64,000 nt of DNA from Rhexocercosporidium sp. MPI-PUGE-AT-0058 (lineage: Eukaryota > Ascomycota > Leotiomycetes > Helotiales). The notes below the pieces were generated by a model. The model was not told where the DNA came from. It saw only the letters and a program-made list of their open reading frames with translations, and made no database searches. How positions within the stretch are numbered: position 1 is the first letter of the stretch; each line of letters begins with the position of its first letter. Shown one piece after another: positions 1 to 62,489 of this stretch. The position numbers and the translations under genes are program-made. The stretch spans positions 1,736,001-1,800,000 of the forward strand of contig JAGTJL010000016.1 of assembly GCA_020746875.1 (NCBI GenBank), read 5' to 3'.

Positions 1-1602
1 CCATGTCTCTTGTGGGTCGTGGATATAAGGACTGGAAATAAACACCATCAAATTATGGAGGTCGCGCCAGGGGGTAGAAGAGCAAAAGGTGTTGGAGCGT
101 TGAAGGAGATAGGAGATACTAGTACCTTAGGAGATGAACAGAATCAGTGGGCAACCATACTTAGATCCATGGACCTATGAAGCTGGAAGGGAGGGCAGGG
201 CAAGATATTGACTGGCTGGTGCTGCTAGTCGTTTGGTATCTGCAGTCTGATTATTATTAATTACATCATGGGAACCTGATGGAAGTTGAGGCGGTGAGAT
301 GGCGGTGGCAGAAAATGTGATTACATAATCGAGCTGTTAGTTTTCCTGCACATGATCTGCCAGAGTTCAGTGCAGTCCTGTCCTGTCCACCCCTCGCTCC
401 TTCAATCCTTCTATCAAATCTTCGACCGCAACACTACACGTTCCCCCCTTGTGATACTCTATTGCCTAATATCACATTTTGTTTCCTATGTCAGTACGAG
501 CTATGTCTTTAGACACAAGTGTCTTCGCTGTCAAATTTCACGTCTAAGCAACTGGGCCGTGACAGACGTGTGAACTGTGTTGGCTGCTGTCTGGCAGTAA
601 CGTATCACGTATGACTTGGTACTTTCCAGCGGGTGGAAGAAAAGAGAATCATGACGCCGATATCGATCCAGATGTCGCATCCTGTCTTTTTATCAAATGC
701 CGCTCGGGAAACAAAATACGGGACGAGGACACAAATACTGCACAGTTATCCGCAAGTGCGGTCCTCCTCCGCGATGCTGTATCACGGCCAAACACCGATA
801 CACGGATGAACTGTCAGGTTGACGCCCGGGTCTCTACGTGCATGAGATACTTTAAGTGATAGACTAACTATCCGAGTTCCTCGAGGTTTCAAGGAGCAGA
901 TCTCGGCTCATGACACTAGAGCTCAACACCACACAAAGACGCTTTTCCGCAGGCTCGGCCGCTCCTGGTAAGTTACGTCCGGCAAAGGGGGCTCCTCGGC
1001 TCATACCTCGCCGCAATCAAAACGAAAGCGAGCAGCGCCACACTAGGATATGGGAGATTCGTTCCAGCAGCTTGGTTACACCTAGCCTATCACCAAATGT
1101 CTCTCGTGTCTCTCGTAACCAGCCAATCAGTCACTTAACCCTCGCATTCCCAGTGCTATATTCACCCGCATATCATCTCCGACCTAGCACGCCACCAACA
1201 TTCGCTTCTTGATCCAACAGTCTGTCCGACTCCATTGGTTCCCTTTGCGATGGCACCTATCGATATTGCTCCAACAACATGCAACGAATGACTAAAGTGG
1301 GTGTAGGAGCCGATGGAGTACAGTCCGTTCCGATACAGCAAGCGGTGGCCACCTTTTCAACCGGCTAGCCACCTCCAACGGCCGTCTCTCGTCATCACGG
1401 TCTTCCCATCAACTCTAATCCCATTCCTCAGTAGTACCAGCCGTGAACTTGCACCACTACGGCCTCTCAAGCGTGGAGCTGCGGCCCGTCGTTAGTCATT
1501 AGAAAGGTTCGATATGTGGTGACCTGAGATCAGAGGCAATGCAGGATTCAACGTTGTTCGACTAATTCTCACGCTTGCGACTGGTGATTAACGGAAGAAC
1601 AG
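1..1602. other. No confident gene; upstream region of the first gene
   Basis: I see no recognisable protein or RNA in this stretch. Several short open frames exist (for example 611-859, 910-1212 and 1313-1495 on +), but none shows a known motif or clear splice partners. The real start codon of the gene that follows must lie here, in an upstream exon. The visible coding frame begins right after a good acceptor (TTAAC branch, then AACAG ending at 1602) and has no ATG of its own. Confidence 0.5.
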
Positions 1603-4600
1603 CTCTCCTCCACCCTTGCCATCCCCCACGATTATCCCAGTGTACCACTCGAATTCAAGATACCCGAGGCCTGGCAACGACATCTCTCCCTTTTGGGTTT
1701 GCCTCGAGGAGGACTGAAGGCCTTTAAATCACTTGACGAATCCTGGCTGTACCAAGTATGTCCTGTTATGTCGTATCCCGTGGTCACACGATGCTGAATC
1801 GAAACACAGAAATCAAATTGGCCCCCAGGTGTTGAACGGCGACTACAGCGGTACATGCACACTACAGACTTGTACGAAGTGACCGGATTGGAGGGAACAA
1901 GTTTTTCAAAATTAGTAGATCTATTCATTACCGCCTCGGGACTGCCCAGAATCAATGCTGTTCGAGAGATTGTTGCTGAGAAGTGTCAAGATCTGATCAG
2001 CACATCAGCCAAAGCTTGGGAGAAAGAAGGCGTGATTGAGAGGCAGTCGGATGCTTGGAGAAAGAGTGTGGGGTTTCAAGCACTGTGGGACGCCCAAGTC
2101 GAAAAGTTGAAGCAGTCCAAAACATCTCCGGAGCAAACACCGTCTGATGTCGATATTGGAGATTTTTTGAGCATGTCTAGGCGTAGCTCTGCTTCAACCA
2201 ATCGAGGTCTCTCGGAGGATAGCTTTTCTATAAAGGTTGGTTTTTAGATTACCCTTTCGAAGTCGGCTAACAATTGCTCAGAGGCACGCAGAAGAAGAAC
2301 GCAAGACAGCCGAAACTTCCAAGCGAGCTCGACGAAGTACATCTCGCTTGGGGCAAGACGAGTCTGAAGATTTCATCATAGTCTCTTCAGATAATCGTCG
2401 AAATAGGACATCAACTGATGTCAAAATGGAGGAGGAAAATCAACCTCCGGATGATGATACCGGATCGCCTATTGGACGGATTCATCCGGACTGTGAAACA
2501 TCTAAAGAGAGCGCAAGGAAGGCCGTGGATGTTTGGAATTCGTTGCAATCTTCTCCTAAAGTGTCGGAAACTACACGACCCCAGACGTCCGTATTGGACC
2601 TCATGAGAGAAAGGGAATTCAATTCACCAACGCCAAGTGAAGAATCATCTTCAGTTGAAGGGAATCCTGGTCGACAAGTCTCAGCTCCGGGCCCTAGGGA
2701 GTCAATGGGGCTAGTTGCCCCCGAGTCTGAGTGGTCTTCCGCACATGGCAGCGAACAAACAAGAGTCATTGTTAGAACATCAGGGTCCGAAAGCCATGCA
2801 AATACAAAACCAATTTCTCCTCGGTCCACTCCTCAAACTCAGATAGATTCCAACTACCAAAATTCGGGAACAAGACCATCCACGGGAAAACAGCGTACGC
2901 CATTGCCGTTCCTTCGAGAGCAGAGTCAGTCGCAGAATGCTGCCACCATATCCCTGCCGATTGTGATCCAGTCGCCGGAAATTTCTCAGTATTCGCCTCC
3001 AATCTCATCCGCACAAACCCACGATCCAACAGAGAGATCTTGGAGAAACGAAACAGCCCAAACGGATGTTTCTAACTCCACAAATAACACGCAAGAACAG
3101 CTCGCAGGCTGGAGCATATCTGGTGATAGACACGAATTGCAAAGTGAGAACCAGAGGCCAAAATGGGGGCATGATGACCGAGCACCGGGACCTCCATCAC
3201 CTAGCTTGGATCGTCTGCAAAATCTAGGAAGCTCTTCAACTGCTAAAAAGGCCTACTCAGCCAAGGGTAATGTACCTAGCAGCGTCCTAACACGAGAACA
3301 AGGACCGTTTACGATCTTTCCATCAAGCTTTTCGGTACTCACAACCGAATCTGTACAGCAAAAGAGCCAGGCCAAGTCTGTAAAGAGACGCGGAAGGAAG
3401 TCGGCTGACCATAATGTTGAAGGGTCAAGGACAGATCCACCTGCGATAGTCCCTCACCCCGAGGTGGAGAAACCAGCGAGTTTCGCACTGGAAGATGGGC
3501 TCCCAAAACAGGCACCGATATTGACGTCTCATTCACAGCAGGCCAATCCTCCTGCGCAGAGGGTATTACCCGCAATTCCTGTTTCTCATGGCTTCTACCA
3601 AATGAAGTTGCCACCAAGGCCTACAACAACACCGCCCCCAGCGCAATCAACACATCCGTCAGAACCCTACCGGCCTCCTGCCGTAGTTTTTACAGTTGAC
3701 AATGGAGCAAAAAGCGAGTTGCTGACTGCTGATGTTCAATCGTTCGTAGACAAATTCAAGCACAACGCTAGGGTCATCATTACTGGCTTCAAAAATCCAA
3801 ACAGCGTCCATGAGATCGATGTCATCATGTTTCAAAGCTTGCCTTTCTTCTACAAGTGGTATTCGGAGAATAGTGGGATCACTGACATCGGGCCATTGAG
3901 ATTCGAATTGATCGACGTTCATTGGCAGCAGGAGAAATCATTTGTTGTCCCTGATGGAAATCTCGATCACTTTCGGACATTGAAGCAATATATCTGGGAC
4001 TTGTATTGGGTGGCAATGGACATGAACAAGTCACTTGGCATGTTCAGAGTGGCCATATCACAGTTTCCGCTGCGCGAAGAGACGCCATTTGGTGAAGGGG
4101 CAGCTGCATCGGGATGGAAGGCTGTGAATTCAAGCATTCCCCCCAAGTTTGTCTTGACGCCAAATTCACAAAGTATCATGGTTGTTCCCACTGGTGTTCC
4201 GAAGGATTTCCGAACACAGGCTCAAACTTCACCCCCGAATCAACCACTGTCGATCCTCCCACCACCAATACGGTCGATGCACCATTCGTCAGGATCACAC
4301 AGCATGAATGATCCAAAAGATTCTCCTCGCAATAGCCTTCAGGCTAGCCTTCCATCTCCCAATCAATCGCCGTATCTGCATGGTCCTTATTCAAGAGATT
4401 CTTTCCAACAACCTCCCCATAACGAAAATGAAAGCAGGAACACCGGTCAGACACAGCACCATTCGCAGTCACTGCATGGTCCGGTCAATGTAAGAAGGAC
4501 AGCTTGGGATCAAACCTTGCTTCGGGACTATGCCCGTAGCCTAGTAAGTTCGACGTCTTAATTGCACCTACAGACCCTTTGCTAACTTTACAAGAAGCTT

Positions 4601-5470
4601 CGTGATGCCGAACTGATGGGCGACGAATCGACTGTGAAAGACAAGCTGCCATACAAGACAGGCGCGGAGGTATGTGCCGTTGTTGTGGACAAGATGAGTG
4701 GTAAGGGTCTAGTCACCGTGAGCGGCAGGGGGTACATTACTCTCAACATCACTACTGGACCTGAGGAGACTGGTGAACGATTTAAAGAGGTAACGATACA
4801 GCCGAAGCAGACATGCATGCTGCACGGGGGTGCAGTCGTCCTGTATTTCAAGCGTGAACTTGGTCTGCTACCTTTACCACCATCTCGACCGCCCATTGGC
4901 AGGAGTGAAGGCGATGAACGATATAGAGGAGATAGGCGTCCGTTGGGTTCCGTGTATGACCAAGGGGTGAATCTCGCTCTTACACAAGAGCGCCACCGAG
5001 ACGAACACCCACTCCCTCCACCCCTGACACTGCCCTCGAAACACGCCGCACCGCCGCAAATACTCCTCCGGGAAGATAGCCAACCCACTCCCACAACCTC
5101 ACCCCTCGACATAAAAATCCGAGTGCAAGTTGACGGAACCGGACGCTTCAGCATCCCCTTCGATAAATCCGTCCTCCGCCCCAAAGTCACCACCACAGAA
5201 TTCTTCGCCTGGTTCGCAAGTCAGAGTCGTCACAGCCCTCCACAACCTCCACACCATTTGAAGTTTACGTTCAAGGACGCGATGCCGATCCCTCAGGCGA
5301 CAGAGATCACGGCTGGGAATGAGGATCATTTTAATTATATGAGGAGGGATATTAAGGCGCAATGTGAGAAGGCGAGGAGATTCATGCCAGAGTTAAGGGA
5401 GTTTGTTATTCTTGTCACGGTGCCGGGGTGGGTTTTGCCGATGACAGAGGAGGAGGAGGATGAATGGTGA
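1603..5470 (+). CDS. Large hypothetical protein, nuclear-looking, 5' end incomplete
   Basis: I do not recognise the function. Four exons join in frame: about 1603-1755, 1810-2235, 2282-4543 and 4595-5470, giving at least 1238 residues. The N-terminal ~190 residues are predicted helical and look like a folded domain. A basic patch (KRARRSTSR) follows soon after and may be a nuclear localisation signal. The next ~450 residues are Ser/Pro/Gln-rich and probably disordered. A second folded block, around codons 660-780 of the joined frame, begins near VFTVDNGAKSELLTADVQSF. A last folded block lies in exon 4, ending in a strand-rich region (FVILVTVPGW) and an acidic tail. The long disordered middle flanked by two folded ends resembles a chromatin or scaffold protein, but that is inference. 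The start codon lies in an upstream exon I could not place. All three introns have good signals and phase 0. Confidence 0.7.
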
Positions 5471-6097
5471 TGGAGCTGGTTGCACAATTGGATCTGACAA
5501 CAATACTTCGGCTGCAAGAGCTTGTTCCTTGCCTATAGCAACGATTCCAACAAGGATGGGGGGAAGTGTCATAGGTATCAAATCGACCATCTCAAGAATT
5601 GGGCATTTATCACTTCCTGTTACACTTTAACTCGTTCCGATTGCTATGGATTGGTACGGCATGCTTTAGCAGAGCATGAACAAGTGAGAGATACAAGAGT
5701 CCTGATGATCGATGGTTCAAGAAGCAAATTTTCTCGAATATGCTCTCGCATGTACTGTACATGATTACAATAGAAGGAAATTACCATCCTCCGATGCAAG
5801 ATAGACACAAATCCTACTACATATCACCCAATAGACGGTCATTAAGATCATTATTAAAATCGCCATTCATGATTTCGTTTAATTAGATGGTCTACATATG
5901 GCTCTGCTTTTTGATAGTTTTGGATGTCACTGGAAAGCTCCAAACGCTGCTAGCATGATGTTGGTACCACACCACCGACATCATCAAGCAAAGCAGATAT
6001 AAGCATATATGATAAAGTATCTTACCCTTTTCCTACACTCTGTTCCAACTTATCGCCAACAAAACATTCACTTCTCCTCTCCCAGCCCTTCCCACCA
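5471..6097. other. Convergent intergenic region
   Basis: This lies between the 3' ends of the large hypothetical gene (+) and the cyclase-domain gene (-). I see no RNA gene or further coding signal. The sequence is moderately AT-rich and is presumably two 3' UTRs. Confidence 0.5.
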
Positions 6098-51771: not shown

Positions 51772-53515
51772 ATGGCCTCAAGCGACGAACCGATGACCGA
51801 TATAGAGAAGGGGCATGAAGTTAATGCCTCTCAATCCCAACCTCAACTCCATTTATCGCCCAAAAAAGACCCCTCCGTCGAATTAGACCCAACCCTCCAT
51901 ATCGACGATCCTGCTATCTCTTCCGACCATAAGATACTTGAATGGACGCTACGAATTGAGCGTTTGCTTGGCCTCGAGGTCCGCGGTATTCATCGAGTAA
52001 AACAAAATGAGCAGACGGCTGGGACAACACTCGGCTTTTGGCAGATTGTGATGATGTGGTTCTCGATCAACACTGCACCACAAAATATTACTCTGGGTAG
52101 TATTGGCCGAGAAGTCTATGGGCTTGGGTTTAGGGATGCGGTTCTGTGCAGTGTATTTGGAGGCATAGTGGGATGCACACCTGTGGCTTATACGGCAGGA
52201 TGGGGTCCATGGAGCGGCAATCGAACCATGGTTTGTAGAGCAATGTCCATTTTTGTATGGCACTGTTCTAACTAAGCTCTAGATCTGCGCAAGGTACACC
52301 ATGGGATGGTGGCCGGTAAAGCTTTGTGTCTTACTCAACCTTGTGGTTTTGATTGGTTATTCCATGATAGATGCTGTTGTAGCCGGCCAAATGCTTTCTG
52401 CCGTTTCCCCAAACGGCAGTCTGACTGTTCAGGTTGGCATTGTCATAACGGCTATCATCACATGGGTTATCACTACATTTGGTATTAAGCTGTTCCATTA
52501 TTTTGAAAGGTAAGTCTCCATTGAATATAACCTGGCCTATCTGACTTTAGGAAGATATGCTTTCATACCGCAGACAATCGTCCTTCTGATCCTGGCAGGA
52601 ACAGCTGGACCTAAATTTGACACAAGATCTCCATCCACTGTCGAAGGCGCTACACTTGCTGGCAATCGTCTGAGCTTCTTCTCTATCTGCTTGAGTGCAG
52701 CTATTACTTATGCACCCGGAGCAGCCGACTTTTTAGTGTACTGCGATCCCAAAATTGCTACACGCTGGAAAGTATTTGCTGCCACGTTACTGGGGCTCTC
52801 GCTGTCATTTACTTTCACATTTACACTTGGGGCTGGCTTGGCATCTGGTCTTCAAAATGATCCCAATTGGGAAGCTGCAGGGGCCGGCACTGGAGCTCTT
52901 GTTGTGGCTGGGTTCGACGGACTAGGCAGCTTTGGCAAATTCTGTTCAGTGGTATCAGCTTTGGGTCTCATTCCAAATATGGTGGCTCCCACCTACATCT
53001 CTGGTATCGATTTCCAGGTTCTTGGAAGAGTGTTTGCAATCATTCCACGATTCATCTGGAATACATTTGCCGTCATTGTATTTGCTGTCTGCGCTCTGGC
53101 TGGAAGGAATAGTCTTTCGGCTATTTTCACCAACTTTTTGGCCCTGATGGGTTATTGTAAGTCCAGTCACCCGCTCCTCACGAACTCTCTATACTCATCA
53201 TATTCAGGGGTCGCGATATGGATCGCCATCACTCTCGAGGAAGAATACATTTTCCGGCGGCGACGTAAGCCCAGCTTCGTCTGGAGTGACTGGAGCACCC
53301 CAGAGAAACTTCCAATTGGAATCGCAGCACTCATCGCATTCTGTGTCGGCTGGGCAGGCTCTGTACTCTGCATGGCGCAGTACTACTTCATTGGGCCGCT
53401 TGCCGCTTTGGTTGGAGATGATGGTGCGGATATGGGTATTTATGTTGGCTTTGCCTGGGCGCTGCTGGTTTATCCACCGTTGAGGTATTGGGAGCTGAAG
53501 CGCTTCGGCAGATAG
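51772..53515 (+). CDS. NCS1-family purine-cytosine permease (FCY2-like)
   Basis: Four exons (51772-52230, 52283-52509, 52555-53156 and 53208-53515) encode 531 residues. After a ~95-residue hydrophilic N-terminus comes RGIHRVKQNEQTAGTTLGFW and about twelve membrane segments. FCY2-type landmarks include MMWFSINTAPQNITLGSIG, HYFERYAFIPQTIVLL, ITYAPGAADFLVYCDPK and YWVAIWIAITLEEEYIFRRR. Members import purines and cytosine with protons across the plasma membrane. All three introns are 45-52 nt. The third exon starts at the second of two possible AG acceptors (52553-52554), because only that keeps the conserved FERYAF join in phase. Confidence 0.93.
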
Positions 53516-58716: not shown

Positions 58717-59252
58717 ATGGCAGATACTGAGATGGATGTCGATGTGCCGCTCTCCCCAGACCTCAAACAAGATACCAAGAATGCCTCAATGGCCACGCAT
58801 ACAAACGCGACTGCCGTCCGCTCTATCGAAGGCTGGATCGTCATCGTCACCAATGTCCACGAAGAGGCCAGCGAGGAGGATCTGAATGACCTGTTCGCCG
58901 AGTTTGGAGAGATCAAGAACCTGCACTTGAACCTGGATCGCAGAACGGGTTATGTCAAGGTGCGTGCGCAGCGCATAACATTCTCTACTCTGCATGGCTG
59001 GGCTGGCAAGGGGAACTGGCTAATGAAGCATCGGAATAGGGCTATGCGCTGATCGAATACCCAACCCTGGACGAGGCACGCAAGGCGATCGATGGTGCGC
59101 ATAACACAAAGCTGTTGGATCAGACGATTGAGGTTGATTTCGCTTTCGTGCGACCACCACCCGGTAAGGGCAGAGGAGGACGACCGCCTGCGAAGGGAAG
59201 AGCGAGAAGCAGGAGTCGTAGCCCGGGTGCTAGGGATGAGGTTGTCGAGTAG
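58717..59252 (+). CDS. RNA-binding protein Y14 (RBM8A), exon-junction complex subunit
   Basis: Two exons, 58717-58959 and 59040-59252, encode 151 residues. An acidic N-terminus ([20 protein letters not shown]) is followed by [20 protein letters not shown] with RNP2 near residues 41-46. The single RRM contains [20 protein letters not shown], and the RNP1 motif crosses the intron (YVK then GYALIEY). [20 protein letters not shown] and an Arg/Ser-rich tail complete it. Y14 pairs with Mago nashi in the exon-junction complex and takes part in mRNA export and surveillance. The 80-nt intron has a GTGCGT donor and an AATAG acceptor. Confidence 0.93.
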
Positions 59253-61009: not shown

Positions 61010-62311
61010 ATTGACGTATTGTAAGCAGGTTGCGAGGTTGCAAAGTGAGACTCGAAAGTCAAATCCTATTCCCAAACGGTGTCAGATAGACCCCACCTGC
61101 CACTCGAGTTGAACTCCTACCTGAGATCGGAACCTTGTTCCTATGAATTACCAAATCTCCCCTTATCTTGTTCAGCTCCCCGCGATGAAGGCAAATCTCT
61201 GCAGAACAAGACCCGTCTAGCTCGGCAATCGGACAAGTTATGTTGCATGCAATGCTGGGAAGTTTGGTTTTATTTTCAAGGAGGTTAATTGATCTTAGAA
61301 AAATGCCGCGTTTGGGGAGGGTTCGGTTGCGCTAACCTCGAGTAGCGTGGTGGCAGGGGTATTTGTTGACTTTCAGGCTGGGACGTGTTCTGCTTGGTGC
61401 TGTGCAGGTGAGTGCATGTTTGGTGTGGTTATCTTTAGTCTACGATGCATTGTATCTTGTTGAAGTATGAAGCAATGGTAGGGTCTGATGAGAAACAATA
61501 CATAACGGTCGGTATCAGTGCCGTAGAAAGGAAGGCTCTCATAGGCACAAAGTGATCTATTGGTAGAGCTAGACACCCACCAAGCTGCGTGTGAGCACTG
61601 CAATGTTGAGTTGCAATGTATGGGACAAATACTGCGGCGTTGTCATGAAGGTTTAGATTCACTAGATTTCTCAGAAAATTGCATAAGTCTTCAGAGCAGA
61701 GCAAATTTAGCCTACCTCTTCGTCCTCTCTCTTAGATACGCCGATGTCTACTTTTAGAGTAATCTTGTGCTTGCTCATAGTACATTTTTTCAACTCTCTC
61801 TGTTCTTTTCTTTCTTGGAAGGGGGTGGAGGGGTTTTTTAATGAGTTATGGATACGATTCTACGCCTTAAAGCTTCAGGGTATTCAAGTTATTAAACGAA
61901 GTCTTAAGATAGAAACTTAAAAAAAAAGCATCGGCTTTCTTTATATGTGCCAGAAGTAAGTAATGACTACGTTGAGAGCAGATCTTTGATGCATAGTCGG
62001 CCTTTGTGCGAGCATTATGCCCTTGTACGAACACTATGTATATGTGAGCATGAAAATTTTCTTTAAATAGGAGCTCTTTAGACTATTATTTCCTGAAAAT
62101 TCATTACAACCCCCCTCGCCACCCCCCCCCCCCCCCCCCCCCTCATATTCTTCTATATACTACCACTTCTCTACCTAAGGTTTCTCATTATCATTTTTTC
62201 GTAAGCGGGATAGAGGGGGCGATATCATTGGTCGCCTTTCTTTTCTCGTCTTGAGAAATTTTAATTCTAATATGTAGTCAGATAACGGCAAATTTGGCCA
62301 ATCAATTCATT
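61010..62311. other. Intergenic region with poly-C tract
   Basis: No gene was recognised. It contains a 21-base C run at 62122-62142, about 170 bases upstream of the tRNA gene, and AT-rich flanks around 61.9-62.1 kb. Confidence 0.5.
62122..62142. repeat. Poly-C tract, 21 nt
   Basis: There are 21 consecutive C residues, preceded by further C-rich sequence from about 62110. Such tracts can form i-motif/G-quadruplex structures and are prone to length change and sequencing error. Confidence 0.9.
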
Positions 62312-62318
62312 GGTGACG

Positions 62319-62329
62319 TGGCCGAGCGG
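62319..62329 (+). promoter_or_regulatory. tRNA internal promoter A box
   Basis: TGGCCGAGCGG matches the A-box consensus TRGYNNARNNG exactly. It ends one base before the last base preceding the D-loop insert, so the insert does not break it. Confidence 0.85.
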
Positions 62330-62330
62330 T

Positions 62331-62384
62331 GTAAGTTGACCTGAACCTCAGCAGATAAGGAAATAAAAACTGACAATAAACCAG
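62331..62384 (+). other. Spliceosomal-like intron inside the tRNA D-loop
   Basis: This 54-nt segment begins GTAAGT, has CTGAC at 62370-62374 and ends CCAG. These are the same signals and length as mRNA introns in this window. Excision joins GCGGT to TATGGC and restores the D-arm. The position is far from the canonical tRNA intron site, so tRNA endonuclease would not be expected to remove it. Confidence 0.7.
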
Positions 62385-62402
62385 TATGGCGCTAGTTTCA
62401 GG

Positions 62403-62438
62403 CTTCTCCTTCCTTTCCAAGGATTGTAACAGTCAAAC
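62403..62438 (+). other. Canonical tRNA anticodon-loop intron
   Basis: These 36 nt lie between tRNA positions 37 and 38, the normal site for nuclear tRNA introns removed by the tRNA splicing endonuclease. Confidence 0.75.
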
Positions 62439-62458
62439 TACTAGTTCGAAAGAGCATG

Positions 62459-62469
62459 GGTTCGAATCC
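62459..62469 (+). promoter_or_regulatory. tRNA internal promoter B box
   Basis: GGTTCGAATCC matches the B-box consensus GGTTCGANTCC. Because of the two introns the A-to-B distance is enlarged to about 130 bases. Confidence 0.9.
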
Positions 62470-62484
62470 CATCGTCATCAGACA

Positions 62485-62489
62485 TTTTT
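62485..62489 (+). terminator. RNA polymerase III T-run terminator
   Basis: Five T residues occur four bases after the discriminator base, as expected for a Pol III-transcribed tRNA gene. Confidence 0.8.

Follow-up and report, generated by a model that had tools for sequence, protein, structure and literature searches.

Spliceosomal-type introns in nuclear tRNA genes of Rhexocercosporidium sp. MPI-PUGE-AT-0058, suggested by a tRNA-Leu(CAG) gene with a split D-loop

In the genome of Rhexocercosporidium sp. MPI-PUGE-AT-0058, a tRNA-Leu(CAG) gene has its D-loop split by a 54-nt insert that looks like an intron of a protein-coding gene, and it carries an ordinary tRNA intron as well. This raises the question of what the insert is and which machinery would remove it. 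We examined the gene within the 64,000-nt stretch of DNA analysed (the window) and searched the whole genome (62.7 Mb, 60 contigs) for inserts of the same kind. The insert is very probably a spliceosomal intron of the U2 type, housed in a nuclear tRNA gene of Pol III type; the spliceosome would remove it, in addition to ordinary tRNA splicing. Judged from sequence, working tRNAs in this fungus would thus seem to require the mRNA-splicing machinery.

Anatomy of the split tRNA-Leu(CAG) gene

The gene lies on the + strand in three exons. Exon 1 (62312..62330, +) supplies the 5' strands of the acceptor stem and D-stem, contains an intact A box (TGGCCGAGCGG) and holds the first six of the eight D-loop bases. 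The D-loop insert, a spliceosomal-type intron (62331..62384, +; 54 nt), starts with GTAAGT and ends with CCAG; its 3' part reads AAAAACTGACAATAAACCAG and includes a branch-site-like CTGAC motif, with the A 11 nt from the end. Exon 2 (62385..62402, +) completes the D-arm and provides the 5' strand of the anticodon stem up to position 37, with the anticodon CAG at 62399-62401. It is followed by the ordinary tRNA intron at 37/38 (62403..62438, +; 36 nt), which has no GT or AG ends. Exon 3 (62439..62480, +) comprises the 3' strand of the anticodon stem, the variable arm, the T-arm with the B box (GGTTCGAATCC) and the 3' strand of the acceptor stem, and has A as discriminator. Just 3' of the gene lies a T-run resembling a Pol III terminator (ATTTTTGG; 62485..62489, +), so that the internal A and B boxes and a downstream TTTTT are all present. 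About 170 bases upstream, the window has a run of 21 C (62122-62142).

With the insert in place, the Rfam covariance model RF00005 matches the whole gene, spanning exactly 62312-62480 (+) at 33.7 bits (cut-off 29) and leaving a 56-base stretch unaligned within the D-loop. Together with direct reading of the sequence, this match bears out the limits that the original prediction gave for the D-loop insert and for the separate 37/38 intron. ARAGORN at default settings found no tRNA in the whole window; with introns allowed, it mis-calls the gene as Tyr when unspliced and as SeC when spliced. The claim that removal of the insert restores the D-stem also holds, with 21 of 21 stem pairs canonical without the insert versus 18 of 21 with it. 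The D-arm that results, GCCG-AGCGGTTA-TGGC, is one base off that of an uninterrupted tRNA-Leu(CAA) gene (L043), which reads GCCG-AGTGGTTA-TGGC. Elsewhere in the genome, 19 bases identical to the L043 D-arm occur in a weak tRNA-like match of 18.3 bits (L103, G000:C23:3274563-3274581, - strand) that is probably a tRNA relic.

None of the 5740 excisions of 40-95 nt scored at this gene ranks above the GT..AG excision and 30 tie with it; because D-loops vary in length, the cloverleaf cannot by itself locate the junction. The bare signature GTRNGT..CTRAY..YAG over 45-65 nt occurs in the window four times on the + strand and six times on the - strand, and 2.85 times on a shuffled + strand. It is the position of the insert within a tRNA, with 21 further inserts in the genome, that puts it beyond chance.

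Fungal 5' splice sites follow the consensus GTRNGT, and the branch-site motif CTRAY lies near the 3' end of the intron. The insert had been described as having the signals and size of protein-gene introns in the window, and the four such introns that we delimited agree with this. Three belong to a permease gene, with boundaries placed by eye against its homologue P0121: intron 1 (52231..52282, +; 52 nt, GTTTGT..CTAAC..TAG), where two tblastn matches meet; intron 2 (52510..52554, +; 45 nt, GTAAGT..CTGAC..AAG), which a tblastn match crosses with gaps; and intron 3 (53157..53207, +; 51 nt, GTAAGT..CAG), which has no YTRAY in range. The fourth (58960..59039, +; 80 nt, GTGCGT..CTAAT..TAG) was read by eye in a gene that we take to be Y14/RBM8A. 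As for relatives of this DNA, the window permease is 87-88% identical to that of Cadophora sp. and to that of an organism with a name beginning 'Leptodont', and the window proline dehydrogenase is 93% identical to that of Leptodophora sp. and 81-83% identical to those of Oculimacula and Rhynchosporium, which marks the DNA as that of a helotialean leotiomycete.

U6 is a Pol III gene, and mRNA-type introns are known in fungal U6 snRNA genes. The parallel with U6 that had been drawn holds within the genome studied here: its U6 snRNA gene (L136; about 1449-1650, G000:C1:767328-767482, +) has two mRNA-type introns of 50 and 49 nt, reading in succession CATTTGGT, GTAAGT..CTAAC..CAG, CAATTTGAAACGATACAGAGAAGATTAGCATGGC, GTAAGT..CTAAC..CAG and CCCTGCAC. 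An RNA made by Pol III elsewhere thus bears the same kind of intron in this genome. A second, divergent U6-like gene (L135; about 1500-1609, G000:C12:3467522-3467630, +; 66 bits) is contiguous, without introns, and a third locus (L137; G000:C1:868279-868333, +) has the 3' part of U6 alone, preceded by unrelated sequence, and looks like a truncated copy. Five of these six reference introns (four of window protein genes, two of U6) have the branch motif with its A 10-16 nt from the end, and GT..AG ends are common to the tRNA inserts, the window protein-gene introns and both U6 introns.

Split tRNA genes across the genome

By Rfam matches together with A-box and B-box patterns, we identified at least 21 tRNA genes in the genome that carry at least 22 such inserts. 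These numbers are lower bounds, since the Rfam genome scan scored 63 of 2658 candidates; 57 of its 58 matches were examined, and from the pattern searches the tRNA-like matches were examined, a subset of all matches. The 57 Rfam matches contributed thirteen of the split genes; the other eight were found in the window and through the patterns. One sequence pattern, TGGCCGAGNGGT, was searched across the genome and occurs at 25 places, among them a tRNA-Leu(TAG) gene (L032) whose D-loop is split at the site used in Leu-CAG by a 55-nt insert, GTAAGT...CTGAC...CAG. Exact matches to TGGCNNAGNGGTGTAAGT number two, namely the Leu-CAG gene and L032. An inverted near-copy (23 of 27 bases) of the 37/38 intron of L032 lies about 300 nt downstream from the start of that gene. 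The insert first noticed in Leu-CAG is therefore real and recurrent, with the same kind present in 20 other tRNA genes, some of which have an uninterrupted paralogue.

As placed by our parser, the inserts occupy many positions of the cloverleaf. Those at 5/6 or 6/7 of the acceptor stem are found in three Ile genes and one Glu-TTC gene, followed by 7/8 in Ser-GCT, 9/10 in Leu-CAA and Ala-CGC (L099, so identified by its anticodon) and 10/11 in Cys and Gln-TTG. The D-loop is split in Leu-CAG, Leu-TAG, Thr-TGT, Thr-AGT and Glu-CTC. Further 3', the Ser-GCT gene with the 7/8 insert has its second insert at 42/43, Arg-TCG is split in the variable region, a second Glu-TTC gene at 52/53 and Leu-TAA at 53/54, and the T-loop is split at 58/59 in three Ala-AGC genes and at 59/60 in Arg-CCG. 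Thus, 21 of the 22 inserts lie outside positions 27-43, the remaining one being that at 42/43.

All 22 inserts begin with GT and end with AG (16 CAG, 4 TAG, 2 AAG), a combination of ends found in 0.38% of random window segments. Their first six bases are GTAAGT in ten, GTAAGA in four and GTAAGC in two, with one GTACCT; G is found at +5 in 21 and T at +6 in 16. In 20 of the 22, a YTRAY motif places its A 10-15 nt before the 3' end, the other two having no YTRAY in the right place, and the lengths are 50-59 nt in 21 inserts and 89 nt in one. Because we picked the loci by eye, GT..AG cases may be over-represented in this set. A tRNA-Gln(CTG) gene (L117; G000:C6:975273-975313, -) has a GTAAGT..CTAAC insert for which the cloverleaf puts the 3' end at TTAT; the insert ends in AT rather than AG, for which reason we excluded it from the 22, and the locus represents either a damaged gene or an unusual 3' site. 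Among the Rfam matches, the 11 weakest (E > 0.001) all have an insert, ten with GT..AG ends and one (L117) with GT..AT, the line at E 0.001 having been drawn post hoc with L086/L113 (E 0.00026) just across it. Left out of all counts were loci with a B-box-like sequence, namely L086/L113 (35.3 bits), L112, L118, L124, L129, L143, L145 and L151. Three of them, L112, L124 and L129, have a B box and a T-run, with AAATAA upstream in L124 and L129; they gave no match to Rfam at E 0.1 and are possibly other Pol III RNAs.

Splice-site ends bear on whether the tRNA endonuclease, instead of the spliceosome, could cut the inserts as extra bulge-helix-bulge introns at unusual positions. The red alga Cyanidioschyzon merolae and Crenarchaeota are described as having introns off 37/38, including some in the D- and T-arms and more than one in a gene (available text of PMC3978253 and PMC9602550). 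In the genome studied here, however, a strict bulge-helix-bulge, with a 4-bp central helix between two 3-nt bulges, was tested through its central helix, and a 4/4 helix occurs at none of the 22 annotated junctions; with the junction slid by up to 3 bases, it appears at five positions in four genes. A bulge-helix-bulge would also leave GT, the branch motif and AG unexplained, and the 37/38 introns of the same genes lack such ends: among the 21 parser-placed 37/38 introns that we tabulated (14 in split genes, 7 in other tRNA genes), none begins with GT and none ends with AG. We therefore regard endonuclease cleavage of the inserts as highly improbable.

For each gene we scored every excision of 40-95 nt (1001-5740 per gene) with a simple, purpose-written cloverleaf scorer, and the GT..AG excision is unbeaten for 20 of the 22 inserts. 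For Leu-TAG and Glu-CTC it is beaten in each case by two others, by 0.15-0.2 points. Tied excisions number 29-51 in the five D-loop inserts, 226 in the variable region of Arg-TCG and 1-6 in the other 16. The product of the chances that the GT..AG excision is among the best or equal, over the 22 inserts, is about 10^-37, which is only a guide because the inserts are taken as independent and the picking by eye is ignored. Once spliced, all 21 split genes have 20-21 of 21 stem pairs, and ARAGORN assigns the right anticodon to 13 of the 16 spliced forms tried, Leu-CAG not among them.

Paralogues, transcription and a proposed order of processing

Intact stem pairs speak against a further explanation, in which sequence was inserted at random into tRNA copies that are dead, the work being left to intact genes. 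Some tRNAs do have intact paralogues, as this explanation would expect. For Glu-CTC, L120 has an insert and L119, L121, L122 and L123 are uninterrupted; for Ile, L003 is uninterrupted and L107, L108 and L110 are split; for Ser-GCT, L089 is uninterrupted and L138 has two inserts. Likewise, the uninterrupted Leu-CAA copy L043 stands alongside a split one, and the split Gln-TTG gene L126 was compared with the uninterrupted L030 and L127, the latter being Gln-CTG by its parse with a 5' part the same as that of L126. Additionally, L103 resembles a real tRNA relic, and the 3' site of L117 is damaged or odd. Against this explanation, the exons of the three Ala-AGC genes, on three contigs, are 97-100% identical despite diverging intron interiors, whose identity (0.44-0.53) is that of shuffles (0.44-0.50). 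GT, the branch motif and AG are kept in all three introns. Such a pattern, with exons and signals kept and interiors diverged, is what selection for splicing would leave. Overall, six of the seven intron pairs compared are at shuffle level, the exception being a pair of Ile introns (a/b) at 0.62 versus a 95% shuffle bound of 0.56.

For other tRNAs, intact copies did not turn up in our partial census. Searches with A-box/D-arm patterns yielded no intact Leu-CAG, Leu-TAG or Leu-TAA gene; those combining a B box with a T-run yielded none for Leu-CAG, Leu-TAG or Ala-AGC. The last D-arm pattern gave 36 places, of which seven are the known Leu-like ones; 20 of the other 29 were examined and none fits the Leu model. 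Many intact tRNA-Leu(CAG) copies, named in the original prediction as evidence against it, were thus not seen with these patterns. Seen only in split form within the same census were Ala-AGC (three of three), Glu-TTC (two of two), Thr-AGT, Thr-TGT, Arg-CCG and Ala-CGC. Of the explanations that we weighed, insertion into dead copies appears the least probable, with hardly any weight left to it.

The remaining alternative accepts a spliceosomal intron and places it in a longer RNA made by Pol II, from which the tRNA would be released. Splicing by the spliceosome normally goes together with transcription by Pol II, and the A or B box is split by the intron in some of the other genes, the B box for example in Leu-TAA, Ala-AGC and Arg-CCG. 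Against this stand Pol III-like flanks. The element AAATAR is found at -70 to -20 in 12 of the 16 split genes with at least 63 nt upstream (26-57 nt upstream of the gene) versus 2.3% of random segments. It is also found within the upstream 70 nt of 11 of the 14 unsplit tRNA genes with at least 63 nt of flank (17 genes measured, three of them excluded for short flanks and a further one, not found, left out). In 15 of the 21 split genes, four T in a row occur within the next 19 nt; the other six have none in the flank examined, some of these flanks being short. Leu-CAG itself has the T-run and no upstream AAATAR. U6, as a Pol III gene, has such introns in the same genome. T-run avoidance within the 22 introns, a further possible sign of Pol III, gave a null result, with TTTT or longer in 2 introns versus 4.6 in shuffles (P 0.11) and TTTTT in none, no rarer than in shuffles (P 0.26). 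The Pol II transcript, which the original prediction had offered as an alternative, is accordingly less favoured and seems to us very unlikely.

If the D-loop insert is a spliceosomal intron in a Pol III transcript, processing might proceed as follows. The pre-tRNA-Leu(CAG) would be transcribed with both introns; the spliceosome would excise the D-loop intron by two transesterifications, using the GU 5' site, the A of the CUGAC branch site and the CAG 3' site; loss of this intron would allow the D-arm and the L-shape to form; and the tRNA endonuclease and ligase would next take out the 37/38 intron. Contacts with the D-arm, and perhaps with the acceptor stem, are proposed for Sen54, a subunit of the yeast endonuclease (PMC4090602 and PMC3978253, available text), and it is plausible for this reason that the ectopic intron leaves first and the 37/38 intron second. 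For C. merolae, removal of the D- and T-introns is supposed to precede that of the anticodon intron (PMC9602550, in the part available). As 14 of the 21 split genes also carry an ordinary tRNA intron, the spliceosome would, on this model, often act before the tRNA endonuclease on the same molecule.

The introns may have arisen by reverse splicing into abundant nuclear RNAs that were then copied back into the genome. For one class of fungal 18S introns, the accessible part of PMC11889510 counts reverse splicing among the possible routes, with reference to work on group I introns, and that of PMC6726248 states that intron transposition via RNA is documented in yeast. If they are spliceosomal, the introns spread through these tRNA genes would document in nature where, at defined positions of an RNA, introns were gained, and reverse splicing would become testable. 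For the cell, we think it somewhat more probable than otherwise that the spliceosome is an essential tRNA-processing machine in this lineage, on which whole codon groups depend and which couples tRNA supply to mRNA-splicing capacity. The codon groups dependent on pre-tRNA splicing would then be Leu CUA, CUG and UUA, Ala read by AGC, Thr and Glu GAA.

Relation to known introns and tRNA annotation

Split genes of this kind are easily missed. Of the 21, 14 are below the Rfam cut-off or without a match, and ARAGORN called 5 of 16 unspliced forms, one of them with the right anticodon; tRNA finders would therefore undercount genes in such fungi. Non-canonical introns are described for archaea in the available text on tRNAscan-SE 2.0 (PMC8450103). 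Counts by tRNAscan-SE in Helotiales range from 50 to 338 genes and are discussed by lifestyle (PMC11678538, available part); these published differences may in part be an artefact of split genes. In the open-access literature, to which the search extended, none of the titles and abstract openings matched reports spliceosomal introns in nuclear tRNA genes.

Several known systems resemble the one described here in part. Canonical 37/38 tRNA introns occur in the same genes, but differ from the ectopic inserts in their ends and in their place on the cloverleaf. The ectopic introns of C. merolae and Crenarchaeota likewise interrupt the acceptor stem, D-arm, variable region or T-arm, sometimes several in one gene (PMC3978253, PMC9602550, available text); theirs are bulge-helix-bulge introns, whereas those described here have splice-site signals and no 4/4 central helix at the annotated junctions. 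Introners, according to the portions of the sources available, are spliceosomal introns gained in bulk in fungi and are copies of one another; the high inter-copy identity of introner-like elements is not found here, given six of seven pairs at shuffle level, and the introner paper PMC9860276, in which we looked for tRNA, was found to make no mention of it. Spliceosomal introns in ascomycete nuclear rRNA genes (Cubero et al., 2000; Bhattacharya et al., 2000; both as cited in the available text of PMC11889510) resemble these introns in that they, too, sit in genes for non-coding structural RNAs, but their hosts are rRNA genes, in contrast to tRNA genes split at many different positions.

In common with the split tRNA genes, fungal U6 genes have short U2-type introns within a Pol III gene. 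U6, however, is itself a part of the spliceosome, whereas here the hosts are tRNA genes, at least 21 of them, whose promoters are internal. If our reading is correct, the spliceosome can handle structured Pol III transcripts widely, beyond U6.
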